Virus record (IMG/VR): IMGVR_UViG_3300031951_000015
Span: 62,001 to 126,000 of that record
DNA length: 64,000 nucleotides
Strand: one strand, 5' to 3'
Source: a virus
Below the pieces are notes generated by a model. It was not told the DNA's origin. It was given only the letters and a program-made list of their open reading frames with translations, and searched no databases. Made by a program: the position numbers and the translations under genes. Shown one piece after another: positions 3,539-61,615 of this stretch (within the stretch, counting starts at the first letter, position 1; every line of letters starts with the position of its first letter).

Positions 3539-3562
3539 TTTAAATATTTCAACTTAATTTCA

Positions 3563-4357
3563 TCATACCATTTCTCTCATGCTTTTGTCAATCCCTCTAT
3601 TATTTTGAAATCTTGAGAGGGCATTATAAGTTGAAATATGCCCTGTAATGAGACATCTCCATTTGATTTTGTTTTGTTTTTTAGCATTTTCACTTCTTTG
3701 TTCTTTTGTCAATCCACATATACCTATCTTAAATTCTTTACAAGTATTTCCTTGTTTTTTACCTCCTGCTATTCTTGCTTTTTTCATATCTTCATCATTC
3801 ATTCCAAATAAACCTTTACCTTCTTCATACAATTTTTTACCTGCTATTTTTCCACCATTACTACATATTTCCATTTTTCTTTCTTCTGCCAATCCATATA
3901 TTCCCACTTTATTAATTTTGTTTATTTTTGATGCCTCTTTACCACCTTTTGAAAGAGATTCTTGTTTTAAATATTTTCTTGCATTTTTTGCATTTTCTAT
4001 TCTTTGGTATTCACTAAATGAATGAATACCCTTTTTACTATCTCTAACACTTATTCCATTCTGCCTTTTTATTGATATAGAATAAGAACCTCCACATCTT
4101 TCATTAAGGCAATAAGAATCATTAAGAACTGGTTTTATCAATCTATCTTCAAGTTTTCTACATTCTTCATAACCTTCATCAGTATAATCAAATACTTCTA
4201 ATATTTGTTTCTTTGGAGTATAAAGTTCCCAACACCACTTATTTGTTATTGGAGAACCCCAGTATTCCTCATCAAATACTTTTTCTTTCTTACTTCCATA
4301 ATAGTAGTAAGGAACTTCTTCAAAGGTAATTTTGTATGTGTAGATACGTGGTTGCAT
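3563..4357 (-). CDS. GIY-YIG/NUMOD-type homing endonuclease (seg-like)
   Basis: A 264-aa basic protein. The N-terminus (IYTYKITF...YYYYGSKK) fits a divergent GIY-YIG core. The C-terminal half has repeated Gly/Lys-rich helix modules (SKGGKEAS..., NGGKIAGKK, AGGKKQGN) typical of the NUMOD DNA-binding segments of free-standing phage homing endonucleases, ending in an IKWRCLITGHIS segment. Codon use is richer in A/T than its neighbours, consistent with a mobile gene. It is inserted between small early genes. Its start follows a long hairpin that encloses a terminator and a late promoter (4367-4444), the same architecture as at the 60888 and 13615 endonucleases. Confidence 0.75.
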   Translation of the reverse strand: MQPRIYTYKITFEEVPYYYYGSKKEKVFDEEYWGSPITNKWCWELYTPKKQILEVFDYTDEGYEECRKLEDRLIKPVLNDSYCLNERCGGSYSISIKRQNGISVRDSKKGIHSFSEYQRIENAKNARKYLKQESLSKGGKEASKINKINKVGIYGLAEERKMEICSNGGKIAGKKLYEEGKGLFGMNDEDMKKARIAGGKKQGNTCKEFKIGICGLTKEQRSENAKKQNKIKWRCLITGHISTYNALSRFQNNRGIDKSMREMV

Positions 4358-4366
4358 AGTTCTACT

Positions 4367-4444
4367 CTAATTTGCTCGCATATCTATTTATATTAAAAAG
4401 GAGGGACTTTCACCCCCCCCTCCCGATAAGTGCGAGCAAATCAG
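4367..4444 (-). promoter_or_regulatory. Late-promoter-in-loop hairpin controlling homing endonuclease 1
   Basis: A 14-bp inverted repeat (4367-4380 with 4431-4444, arms TTTGCTCGCA/TGCGAGCAAA at the core, one G-U pair in RNA) closes a loop. The loop holds a late promoter TATAAATA (minus strand, 4385-4392) and a terminator stem (4400-4405 with 4418-4423) next to an A-run. Transcripts from upstream contain both arms; transcripts from the late promoter lack the 5' arm. The start codon lies 9 nt beyond the 3' arm. Confidence 0.65.
4396..4423 (-). terminator. Intrinsic terminator upstream of homing endonuclease 1
   Basis: On the minus strand GGAGGG pairs with CCCTCC and is followed by five T residues. 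The G-run is expanded to eight compared with the copy at 61554. Confidence 0.6.
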
Positions 4445-4450
4445 GTAATA

Positions 4451-4621
4451 TTATTTAGTGCCATTTAATCGATCCTCACATTTAGTATAAAAAGTTCCAT
4501 TTACATAACAAGACTTACCTGCTTCATAGTATTTTACCACAGGTATTTGTGTTCTTGGATATTCTACCACATTTTTTACATGACAGAATAGATTATAACC
4601 ACAAATAAGAGTTTCAAGCAT
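4451..4621 (-). CDS. Hypothetical protein with four Cys (56 aa)
   Basis: Encodes MLETLICGYNLFCHVKNVVEYPRT... with four Cys residues (C7, C13, C38, C48). Its ATG overlaps the stop of the upstream gene (TGATG). Homing endonuclease 1 follows immediately downstream. Confidence 0.7.
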   Translation of the reverse strand: MLETLICGYNLFCHVKNVVEYPRTQIPVVKYYEAGKSCYVNGTFYTKCEDRLNGTK

Positions 4622-14090: not shown

Positions 14091-14166
14091 TAAGTCTTGG
14101 CGTGACTGATACTATTTATAATAACATATGTGTGGGTCTTACGCAACATAATTCCGCCAAGACTTA
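14091..14166 (-). promoter_or_regulatory. Late-promoter-in-loop hairpin controlling homing endonuclease 2
   Basis: A perfect 12-bp inverted repeat (14091-14102 with 14155-14166, TAAGTCTTGGCG and its complement) encloses a late promoter TATAAATA (minus strand, 14113-14120). The 3' arm ends 2 nt before the ATG, so a read-through transcript would bury the initiation region while a late transcript lacks the 5' arm. Confidence 0.7.
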
Positions 14167-14182
14167 TTGTTGCTGCCCACCA

Positions 14183-15540: not shown

Positions 15541-16329
15541 TCAGTTAAAAAATTGATCTAAAGGATTAAAAGATCGGATTCGTTCCATTGCCATATTAAC
15601 ATACTCCTCATGAATTTCAACTCCAAGATACTTCCGTTTCAAATCAATACATGAAATTGCAGTTGTCCCAGATCCCATAAAAGGATCAAGAACTAAATCA
15701 CCAATGTAACTGTAATACTTAATGATACGATCAGACAGTTCTTTTGGATAGGGCGCTAAATGATCTGAATGTGTTTCTGGATTGATCTTCCATACGTTAG
15801 ATCGTTCATAGTCTTCATTGACAAGTGATTGCTCTAATACATCACCATCATAAGATCGAACAACTTTATCAATTAAGAATGGTGCTGGTTTCTGAAATAC
15901 AAAGATAGTCTCAGTTACAATGTTTGGTTTGTATGCAACTGGTTTGCGATGTTGAAAGAATCCACCATTACGATTAATTGATGCACCCTCAGGTTTTAAC
16001 CAGATAATATCATCAATGTATTTCCATCCCATTTGTTCCATTAAAGTAAAAAAATGAAATGGAATTGCAAGACGTTTACTCTCATGTGCCCGTGATTGTC
16101 TTGCCTCAATCACTGGAGAAAGATTTACAACACACATTCTACCTGGTTGAGTGACTCTTAACACTTCAAGAAACACATTTCTCAAGAAGTCAAGATACTC
16201 TTGGTAAGTTGGCCAAGTTGAATATTCTCTGGCGTTATAATATGGAGGAGAGGTGCAAGTAAGATGCACACTCTCACTTTCTATTTCTTTTAAAAGTCGG
16301 GATGAATCTCCCTGTAAGATCTGATCCAT
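15541..16329 (-). CDS. DNA methyltransferase, beta-class (N6-adenine or N4-cytosine)
   Basis: A 262-aa protein. The catalytic motif IV is TSPPYYN (about residues 26-32). The AdoMet-binding FxGxG motif, DPFMGSGTTAIS, comes near the C-terminus, followed by RKYLGVEIHEEYVNMA. This order (IV before I) defines the beta class of amino-methyltransferases. Its 5' end overlaps the upstream HNH gene by 40 bp, so the two are probably translated together. Roles could be protection from host restriction, protection from the neighbouring nuclease, or marking of phage DNA. Confidence 0.85.
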   Translation of the reverse strand: MDQILQGDSSRLLKEIESESVHLTCTSPPYYNAREYSTWPTYQEYLDFLRNVFLEVLRVTQPGRMCVVNLSPVIEARQSRAHESKRLAIPFHFFTLMEQMGWKYIDDIIWLKPEGASINRNGGFFQHRKPVAYKPNIVTETIFVFQKPAPFLIDKVVRSYDGDVLEQSLVNEDYERSNVWKINPETHSDHLAPYPKELSDRIIKYYSYIGDLVLDPFMGSGTTAISCIDLKRKYLGVEIHEEYVNMAMERIRSFNPLDQFFN

Positions 16330-16754
16330 TGAATTTTTCTACTCGATGCTTTGTTACTATCACAATCACCGTTAATTAGTGATTTTCGACCATGACACAG
16401 TTTACAATAAGTTTTAACATTGTCTGGAATATTGTTATGATGATCGCCATCTAGATGGTCAAGATCCAAACTGTTTTCAAATCCAACCCATCCATCTTTA
16501 GGAACTGGACAAGTCCATCCAAGATGTCCATCATGATTTTCACAATATGATTTCTTATGAATTGTAACTCCAGGAATTACTTTACCATTCTTTCGAGCAC
16601 TAGTGCAACGGGAACATTCGGATTTGAAAGACCAATACTTCCATTCTCGCACAAGAACTTTATTATTACAACCATCATTGACACATGTAGGAAGTTCATG
16701 CCCTTCGACAAAGAACTTCTCTTTCATTTGTTTGGAAAGACTCAACATAATCAA
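16290..16754 (-). CDS. HNH-type nuclease with Cys clusters
   Basis: A 154-aa protein with four or more Cys in zinc-like pairs (CVNDGC, CSRC) in the N-terminal half and an HNH-like core, LDLDHLDGDHHNN, then CKLCHGRKSLINGD. The fold resembles HNH or endonuclease VII-type enzymes. It overlaps the methyltransferase gene downstream and starts within an ATGA of a 46-aa gene upstream. It could be a restriction-type partner of the methyltransferase, a homing nuclease or a packaging nuclease. Confidence 0.7.
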   Translation of the reverse strand: MIMLSLSKQMKEKFFVEGHELPTCVNDGCNNKVLVREWKYWSFKSECSRCTSARKNGKVIPGVTIHKKSYCENHDGHLGWTCPVPKDGWVGFENSLDLDHLDGDHHNNIPDNVKTYCKLCHGRKSLINGDCDSNKASSRKIQWIRSYREIHPDF

Positions 16755-29046: not shown

Positions 29047-29328
29047 TAGGAGCGGCGAGACTTGAACTCGCATAGCCGAAGCCGACGGATTTTCTTACCA
29101 CTACGACTTTCGCCGCCTCATAGAGTTTGTGGTCTGGACTATACCTTCACCATATCTTGTGATTTAGGTGCTCCCCGTCTAGTCTCTACACCTTCATCTT
29201 TCGATGCTTGGCTCGGTATTGCCATTTTACAGGTTTCACCGAATTTGAGGAGTTACACTCATGAGGTTTCCCAAATGAGGCTCAATTTTACATAAGTCCG
29301 TTGTGTCTACCAATTCCACCACGCTCCC
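29047..29328 (-). tRNA. tRNA-Leu(UAA) interrupted by a group I intron
   Basis: Exon 1 (29294-29328, 35 nt) and exon 2 (29047-29093, 47 nt) join to an 82-nt tRNA. The acceptor stem is GGGAGCG/CGCTCCT with a G-U closing pair and discriminator A. The D-stem is GTG/CAC, the anticodon stem ACGGA/TCCGT, and the loop CTTAAAA gives anticodon UAA. A 3-bp variable arm is capped by TTCG, and the T-arm is GCGAG/CTCGC with loop TTCAAGT. CCA is not encoded. The intron splits the anticodon after U34, the position used in cyanobacterial tRNA-Leu(UAA). UUA is a favoured codon in such AT-rich genomes. Confidence 0.93.
29094..29293 (-). ncRNA. Group I intron in tRNA-Leu(UAA) (IC3-like)
   Basis: A 200-nt intron. 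The 5' exon ends CUU and can pair with an internal guide GAG (about 29281-29283), giving the U-G pair of P1 at the splice site. The last intron base is G. Core elements are readable on the minus strand: P (AATTCGGTGAAACCT, 29232-29246), Q (AATACCGAGCCAAGC, 29206-29220), R (GAGACTAGACGG, 29175-29186) and S (AAGGTATAGTCC, 29136-29147). R GACTA pairs with S TAGTC as P7. No endonuclease ORF lies inside. The sequence style matches the ancient cyanobacterial tRNA-Leu intron, though it is shorter. Confidence 0.92.
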
Positions 29329-29371: not shown

Positions 29372-29445
29372 TGCAGGTTGTGGGGATCGAACCCACCTTA
29401 GCCGAATTATGAGTTCGGTGCTTTCAACCAGAGAGCTAAACCTGC
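29372..29445 (-). tRNA. tRNA with CAU anticodon (Met or lysidine-type Ile)
   Basis: A 74-nt tRNA: acceptor GCAGGTT/AACCTGC with discriminator A, anticodon stem CCGAA/TTCGG with loop CTCATAA (anticodon CAU), T-arm GTGGG/CCCAC with loop TTCGATC. G1-C72 pairing rules out an initiator. Elongator Met and Ile2 (CAU made AUA-specific by lysidine) cannot be told apart by eye. Confidence 0.9.
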
Positions 29446-29449
29446 ACGA

Positions 29450-29521
29450 TGGGAACAGCGGGAGTTGAACCCGCGCTAAGCACTTATAAGGTGCCCGCTC
29501 TAACCATTAAGCTATGCTCCC
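29450..29521 (-). tRNA. tRNA-Ile(UAU)
   Basis: A 72-nt tRNA: acceptor GGGAGCA/TGTTCCC (one G-U) with discriminator A, D-stem GCT/AGC, anticodon stem GGCAC/GTGCT with loop CTTATAA (anticodon UAU, reading AUA), T-arm GCGGG/CCCGC with loop TTCAACT. Ile(UAU) is rare in bacteria, which normally read AUA with a modified CAU tRNA. Only 4 nt separate it from the CAU tRNA. Confidence 0.88.
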
Positions 29522-44694: not shown

Positions 44695-44738
44695 TTGGAT
44701 TACCTCGGATAGTTTGGATTCGGGGGATTTACTTAGAT

Positions 44739-44767
44739 AGTATAGCGAAGATTGAATCACCTGTCAA
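44739..44767 (-). promoter_or_regulatory. Sigma-70-like promoter of gp32
   Basis: TTGACA (44762-44767), 17-nt spacer, TATACT (44739-44744) on the minus strand, lying in the end of the upstream gene and the gap before gp32. Confidence 0.75.
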
Positions 44768-61527: not shown

Positions 61528-61593
61528 GGACCGCATATGTATTTATATTAAAAAGGAGGGACTTACACCCTCCTCCTGATAAGATTGCGGTCC
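61528..61593 (-). promoter_or_regulatory. Late-promoter-in-loop hairpin controlling homing endonuclease 3
   Basis: An 8-bp inverted repeat GGACCGCA/TGCGGTCC (61528-61535 with 61586-61593, extended by ACC/GGT) encloses TATAAATA (61540-61547, minus strand) and a terminator. The 25-nt core from the late box through the terminator's 5' half is identical to 4385-4409. The arms differ completely yet still pair. Confidence 0.75.
61549..61574 (-). terminator. Intrinsic terminator upstream of homing endonuclease 3
   Basis: AGGAGGG pairs with CCCTCCT around a 7-nt loop, followed by T5 on the minus strand. Confidence 0.75.
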
Positions 61594-61615
61594 ATCAGGT
61601 ATTAATATTTATCAT

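Follow-up and report, generated by a model that had tools for sequence, protein, structure and literature searches.

Endonuclease genes and their leaders in the window

The window analysed here comprises 64,000 nucleotides, bases 62001-126000 of a virus record totalling 174,667 bases whose closest named relatives are T4-type Synechococcus phages. Near its left end, on the minus strand, a leader is flanked by a 58-aa ORF (4627-4451) and a 264-aa ORF that we call HEG1 (Table 1). An earlier note on this DNA had described a 14-bp stem at 4367-4444 closed around a terminator and the late promoter TATAAATA, with the 3' arm between promoter and start codon; all of these elements lie where they were claimed, on the minus strand, the 3' arm (4380-4367) following TATAAATA (4392-4385) and preceding the ATG (4357-4355). 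The stem includes one G.U pair and its arms are 50 nt apart. At the left edge of the leader is a second promoter-like motif, P1, which the note does not mention; it is the weaker C variant of (A/C)TAAATA, and its TAAATAA also ends the upstream ORF with a stop codon. By the T4 convention the late motif TATAAATA occupies positions -13 to -6, and since this convention is applied here, the late transcript is predicted to start at G4379, the second base of the 3' arm. The late motif of cyanophages has been reported as NATAAATA (PMC2984593), and TATAAATA is present in 94% of the leaders described below.

Table 1. Positions in the window of the three endonuclease genes and of the elements of their leaders
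Feature	Sequence	Position	Strand	Basis or remark
HEG1 leader, promoter-like motif P1	ACTAAATA	4452..4459	-	sequence; left edge of leader
HEG1 leader, outer-stem 5' arm	CTGATTTGCTCGCA	4431..4444	-	fold; covariation
HEG1 leader, segment a	CCTGAT	4440..4445	-	outer part of 5' arm; alternative partner is segment c
HEG1 leader, segment c	ATCGGG	4422..4427	-	pairs with a; alternative hairpin showing 5' arm in loop
HEG1 leader, intrinsic terminator hairpin and T-run		about 4395..4423	-	sequence, fold; within outer-stem loop
HEG1 leader, late promoter P2	TATAAATA	4385..4392	-	sequence; in loop
HEG1 leader, outer-stem 3' arm	TGCGAGCAAATTAG	4367..4380	-	fold; begins 4 nt past TATAAATA
HEG1, free-standing GIY-YIG-like homing endonuclease (predicted), 264 aa		3563..4357	-	family PHROG match, structure model
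HEG3 leader (second class A leader), P1	GATAAATA	61606..61613	-	
HEG3 leader, 5' arm	GGACCGCA	61586..61593	-	fold z -3.57
HEG3 leader, terminator in loop		61549..61576	-	near-identical to HEG1 terminator; AGTCCCTCCTTTTTAATATAAATA common to both
HEG3 leader, late promoter P2	TATAAATA	61540..61547	-	
HEG3 leader, 3' arm	TGCGGTCC	61528..61535	-	
HEG3, GIY-YIG-like endonuclease, 208 aa		60888..61514	-	NUMOD3 motif just under Pfam cut-off
HEG2 leader (class B), 5' arm	TAAGTCTTGGCG	14155..14166	-	class B covariation
HEG2 leader, class B hairpin	GTGGGCAGCAACA...TGTTGCGTAAGACCCAC	14132..14180	-	5' arm in its loop
HEG2 leader, late promoter	TATAAATA	14113..14120	-	
HEG2 leader, 3' arm	CGCCAAGACTTA	14091..14102	-	ends 2 nt before ATG
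HEG2, HNH endonuclease, 157 aa		13615..14088	-	PHROG 374, E 4.9e-36

We treat HEG1 as a probable GIY-YIG-like endonuclease. The protein itself has no Pfam match and no PHROG match at the default cut-off, and PDB sequence searches found no relatives; ten of 16 members of its family match PHROG 314, 'homing endonuclease' (best E 1.9e-9), and Y, G, E and N columns are invariant in the family alignment. The predicted N-terminal domain has the order beta-beta-alpha-beta-alpha, and its top PDB match is the I-TevI catalytic domain, though weakly (E 1.0, TMt 0.51). There is no group I intron around the HEG1 ORF; the only one that Rfam places in the window is a short one at 29117-29303 (minus strand, 58.5 bits), which adjoins tRNAs at 29372-29445 and 29450-29521. 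The 3' end of HEG1 is flanked by a perfect 13-bp inverted repeat (3544-3556 and 3627-3639).

Two further endonuclease genes in the window have leaders of this general kind. The terminator-promoter segment in front of HEG3, a gene whose cyanophage homologues are annotated as homing or HNH endonucleases, nearly equals that of HEG1, and searches of the record with the exact promoter pattern found only these two class A copies. HEG2 has a leader of a second type, class B, described below. A second HNH-like ORF at 16290-16754 (minus strand; PHROG 14736, E 4e-4) is without a TATAAATA hairpin leader.

Complementarity of the arms among relatives

Folded alone, the HEG1 leader region reaches -42.5 kcal/mol (z = -6.35); shuffled versions average -22.0, and none of 200 equals the native value. 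Among 600 random AT-rich anchors the 99% point of the stem score is 30.5 and the 99.5% point 33.5, and the HEG1 stem, with 32.5, falls between the two. Taken singly the stem is thus at about the 1% level, which is not extraordinary for a 64-kb AT-rich window, and a comparison with relatives was therefore needed. The word TATAAATA occurs eight times in the window, where about five occurrences are expected, and three of the eight sit within such a hairpin, each of them immediately before an endonuclease gene.

Relatives of HEG1 and HEG3 taken from IMG/VR gave 99 unique leaders of two nuclease families. The native arms score 29.2 on average, compared with 15.1 (sd 3.3) after exchange between loci, a test in which related leaders are not independent but which retains their composition and includes many different arms. 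A stem score of 20 or more is reached by 95 of the 99 leaders and by 7.6% of swapped-partner pairings, and in nearly all of them the 3' arm begins 4 nt (occasionally 5) past TATAAATA. We consider it virtually untenable that the locus is an ordinary intergenic terminator followed by a late promoter, with an outer stem that arose by chance: other late genes of these phages do have a terminator and then TATAAATA, without arms, but the swapped-partner test, the 97 covarying arm pairs of the larger set below and the fixed 4-nt offset refute this reading. Chance is excluded because arms that differ among relatives stay complementary, and because three of the eight TATAAATA words in the window lie in hairpins before endonucleases.

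The pattern CCTYTNNNNTATAAATANTANTGC was also scanned through viral contigs with no use of nuclease sequence. Among the matches listed, 79 of 81 sites have a stem scoring 20 or more, and 56 of the 81 precede ORFs of known families; the stem-bearing rest precede mostly other nuclease-like ORFs, and the few that remain are cut by a contig end or have a broken frame. As the pattern fixes TGC of the 3' arm, the informative pairs are those beyond the third. Together with the 99 leaders, the scan loci make up a set of at least 156 unique leaders, its scan part being the matches listed, in which 97 distinct arm pairs keep their complementarity. Pairs 4-8 occur with all four Watson-Crick types, and the inner pairs 1-8 are canonical in 100% of this set, a figure that is partly by construction since the set was pre-filtered at a score of 20 or more, the unfiltered 95 of 99 being the fair one. 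These compensating changes show that selection acts on the pairing itself.

As a control, TATAAATA before non-nuclease ORFs gave stem scores in the background range, bar two exceptions with arms off the usual offset, and several high-scoring 'other' ORFs in this control proved nuclease-like. Profile searches place examples of the leader-bearing genes in the GIY-YIG, HNH_3 (PF13392) and, weakly, PD-(D/E)XK families. Identical arms stand before unrelated nucleases, GIY-YIG with HNH in one combination and GIY-YIG with PD-(D/E)XK-like in another, and 69 inner arm sequences are found across 148 GIY-YIG-type genes. With identical arms before unrelated nucleases and many arms within one superfamily, the leader thus behaves like an exchangeable module whose arms are not a nuclease recognition site. 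The same observations make it very improbable that the endonuclease binds the inverted repeat as a DNA operator or as a copy of its homing site. I-TevI does autorepress through an operator that overlaps its own late promoter (PMC2988022), but we reject the idea here because the arms are not tied to nuclease type; what is conserved in them is complementarity alone.

Class B leaders have the layout TGGGC(A/G)GCAAC - 5' arm - GTTGCGTAAG(A/T)CCCA - TATAAATA - 3' arm - ATG, in which the 5' arm is placed in the loop of a terminator-like hairpin. A scan for this layout found 55 unique sites, 34 of them class B leaders with 18 distinct arm pairs; the remaining, low-scoring sites have no arms, and most of them either belong to late genes of another kind or match by chance. 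The best fold of the HEG2 leader alone lacks the outer stem, and its support is comparative, coming from the class B leaders as a group. Since one class B leader (L173 / L351) precedes a GIY-YIG gene of the HEG3 family, this class too is common to different nucleases.

Class A leaders, and one that is class B-like, occur in named phages. Synechococcus phage B23 has a class A leader after gene 46, S-SRM01 has two, one of them between a DUF1825 gene and an ssDNA-binding protein gene, and S-B05 has a class B-like leader. The leader is absent from several relatives on other contigs and from relatives in Alteromonas, Vibrio and E. coli phages, and an Rfam search at the leaders gave no match. Judged by these comparisons, the HEG1 leader is apparently one case of a widespread leader common to unrelated nucleases. 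A possible third, compact form lies about 60 nt before the ORF at three loci (L161, L167 and L119), with TATAAATA in the loop of a short hairpin (arms GATGGAG/CTCCATC; GGACCTCGGTGG/CCACCAAGGTCC) and without a terminator. In S-H68 (L323), positions 235-284, before an H3-type endonuclease that has no hairpin leader, give a sub-threshold glutamine riboswitch match (27.6 bits, cut-off 35), and Sf-CH5 (L199) has a sequence similar to this region.

A proposed mechanism and a possible role of P1

We consider it likely that the leader is a portable 5' element which shields a free-standing homing endonuclease gene from transcription entering from upstream and leaves it to be expressed only from its own late promoter. 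Four observations are behind this proposal: the layout of the leader, arms that stay complementary through compensating changes, a promoter placed at a fixed position relative to the 3' arm, and the absence of the stem at other late genes. RNA arriving from upstream would mostly be halted at the in-loop terminator, whose efficiency we infer, and in RNA that reads through, pairing of the two arms immediately upstream of the start codon would presumably hinder the initiation of translation. Late in infection, a phage late sigma factor of the gp55 type would initiate RNA at TATAAATA in the loop, at the predicted start and, we infer, only at this stage; such RNA would begin at the second base of the 3' arm, without the 5' arm, and would be translated. 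Because the terminator lies in the loop, most upstream transcripts should stop before the gene, and the hairpin should thus be a second lock that acts on read-through after the terminator.

Structure predictions are consistent with these steps. Over the 156 leaders, the start-codon region has a predicted mean unpaired probability of 0.27 in the long RNA. The value is 0.46 when the 5' arm is shuffled and 0.56 in the late RNA, a difference that supports a putative cis lock on read-through RNA. The earlier note had held that read-through RNA would form the hairpin and that RNA from the late promoter would lack the 5' arm. The first of these is supported by the predicted fold (z = -6.35) and by a start region predicted to be less open in the long RNA, and the second agrees with the location of TATAAATA between the arms; the likeness to I-TevI that it drew gains support from the promoter between the arms, the difference in openness (0.27 against 0.56) and the compensating changes. 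At HEG1, 9 nt separate the 3' arm from the ATG, and the stem takes in no more of a weak AGAG ribosome site than its edge, so that what is sequestered in the predicted structure is the initiation region and not a cleanly buried Shine-Dalgarno.

Several points stand against this model, the incomplete cover of the ribosome site at HEG1 among them. If the terminator works efficiently, the hairpin would have little read-through RNA left to control, and some cyanophage endonucleases, F-CphI of S-PM2 among them, have the promoter TATAAATA without the stem. An early/late switch in its simple form, moreover, has no need of P1, which as a second late promoter could give hairpin-containing RNA late in infection too.

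Ahead of the 5' arm, the motif (A/C)TAAATA is present in 93 of 95 unique leaders and in 152 of 156 in the larger set, the base before TAAATA being A or C and never G or T. P1 and P2 have the context (A)TAAATA-nTAAT-G in common; the A or C before the motif and the nTAAT-G after it, as in P2, suggest that P1 may be a second late promoter, with its RNA starting at the 5' arm. There is a plainer explanation that could account for its conservation: in about 105 of 151 leaders the upstream gene terminates here, with either the TAA in TAAATA or the following TAA in TAAATAA as its stop codon. A mini-ORF following P1 was dropped as not conserved, by eye.

Whether P1 belongs to the element can be judged from empty versions, in the window, of sites that are filled elsewhere (44.75, 43.8, 47.6 and 39.7 kb), which bear also on the membership of HEG1 among homing endonucleases. 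At filled sites the element starts with TAAATA at or adjoining the stop codon of the upstream gene. The empty site at 44723-44763 (minus strand) lies before a gp32-like gene, and several contigs and S-SRM01 have a leader-bearing endonuclease exactly there. We rejected the idea that P1 is a late promoter already present at the insertion site, with the 44.7-kb empty site lacking it and TAAATA fused to the stop codon at filled sites; because this empty site has none, P1 appears to belong to the element. At a 14.5-kb site the empty allele already has ATAAATA, and the origin of P1 is ambiguous there. A clean empty site for HEG1 was sought in S-SRM01 and was not obtained, the neighbouring small genes having diverged.

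In an antisense model, RNA from the upstream gene or from P1, ended at the terminator, would present the 5' arm in the loop of the alternative hairpin formed by segments a and c and would bind the 5' end of the late mRNA in trans as an antisense RNA, keeping the endonuclease level low even late, in addition to the cis hairpin. We think this unlikely, though several observations fit it. P1 is conserved in a context like that of P2, and a transcript from P1 would start with the 5' arm; the a:c hairpin, identified from the predicted fold of RNA ending before P2 and from native against swapped pairing, pairs better in its native form (13.0 against 10.3; in class B 15.6 against 14.2, sd 2.5); in RNA that ends before P2, the 5' arm is predicted to be 73% unpaired over its inner 8 nt; and the 5' end of the late mRNA is predicted to be single-stranded. 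Against this, P1 reads CTAAATA, the poorer form, in 20 of 93 leaders, the HEG1 leader among them, the stop-codon role of TAAATAA could itself explain the conservation of P1, and no consistent P1 was found in class B. Two leaders on one contig (L257 and L259) have the same arms, which gives no sign of selection for separate codes. The fuller proposal, in which one arm serves both as trans antisense and as cis lock, in a self-contained, exchangeable two-RNA module acquired through recombination by unrelated selfish nucleases, seems to us similarly doubtful; if true, it would be a common control of both dosage and timing for these nucleases. The choice between cis action, as in the late-only expression that we favour, and trans antisense can be tested directly in isolates, S-SRM01 and B23 for example.

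Relation to known systems

Late promoters within inhibitory structures have been described for I-TevI, I-TevII, I-TevIII, segB and Aeh1 mobE (PMC2988022), and for gene e of T4 (PMC3014915). In the three I-Tev genes, as here, the late promoter lies within an RNA structure over the initiation region (PMC2988022), and upstream transcripts form this structure while late ones lack its 5' part; those genes are intron-encoded, whereas HEG1 is free-standing. The cyanophage leader goes beyond what is seen in T4 in four respects: its loop encloses a terminator, its 5' edge has a promoter-like motif, its 5' arm can be exposed by an alternative hairpin, and unrelated nucleases have it in common. Aeromonas phage Aeh1 mobE and T4 segB resemble HEG1 more closely in being free-standing endonuclease genes with a hairpin and a late promoter, and their ribosome sites are sequestered; they are described as single cases, without a portable leader of covarying arms (PMC2988022, PMC3014915). 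For T4 gene e (lysozyme) the long early RNA is likewise blocked and late promoters between the arms give free mRNA, with TATAAATA in the region of the 5' strand, but this is a gene of the host phage with no mobile nuclease, and an embedded terminator is not described there (PMC3014915).

Our search of the open-access literature turned up no account of such leaders in cyanophages. A related kind of mobility was reportedly described in 2010 by Arbiol et al., whose PeSLs are said to be mobile regulatory cassettes of T4-type phages in which an early promoter and a stem-loop move between genes. The cyanophage leader would share with these a promoter and stem-loop mobile between genes, and would differ in that its promoter is of the late form TATAAATA and its stem spans the promoter and covers the start of the next gene.

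Judged from sequence, then, the late-only logic is that of the T4 and Aeromonas genes, and what appears new is a cyanophage form of it common to unrelated nucleases. Late-only endonuclease expression based on RNA structure has been documented for a few T4 and Aeromonas phage genes (PMC2988022); in cyanophages it would take the form of a widespread module, present ahead of well over a hundred genes that encode nucleases of the GIY-YIG, HNH and PD-(D/E)XK-like kinds. If this is true, control of timing would be a general requirement of selfish nucleases in these phages, and the signature of TATAAATA-nTAATG with its arms also serves to find unannotated endonucleases.
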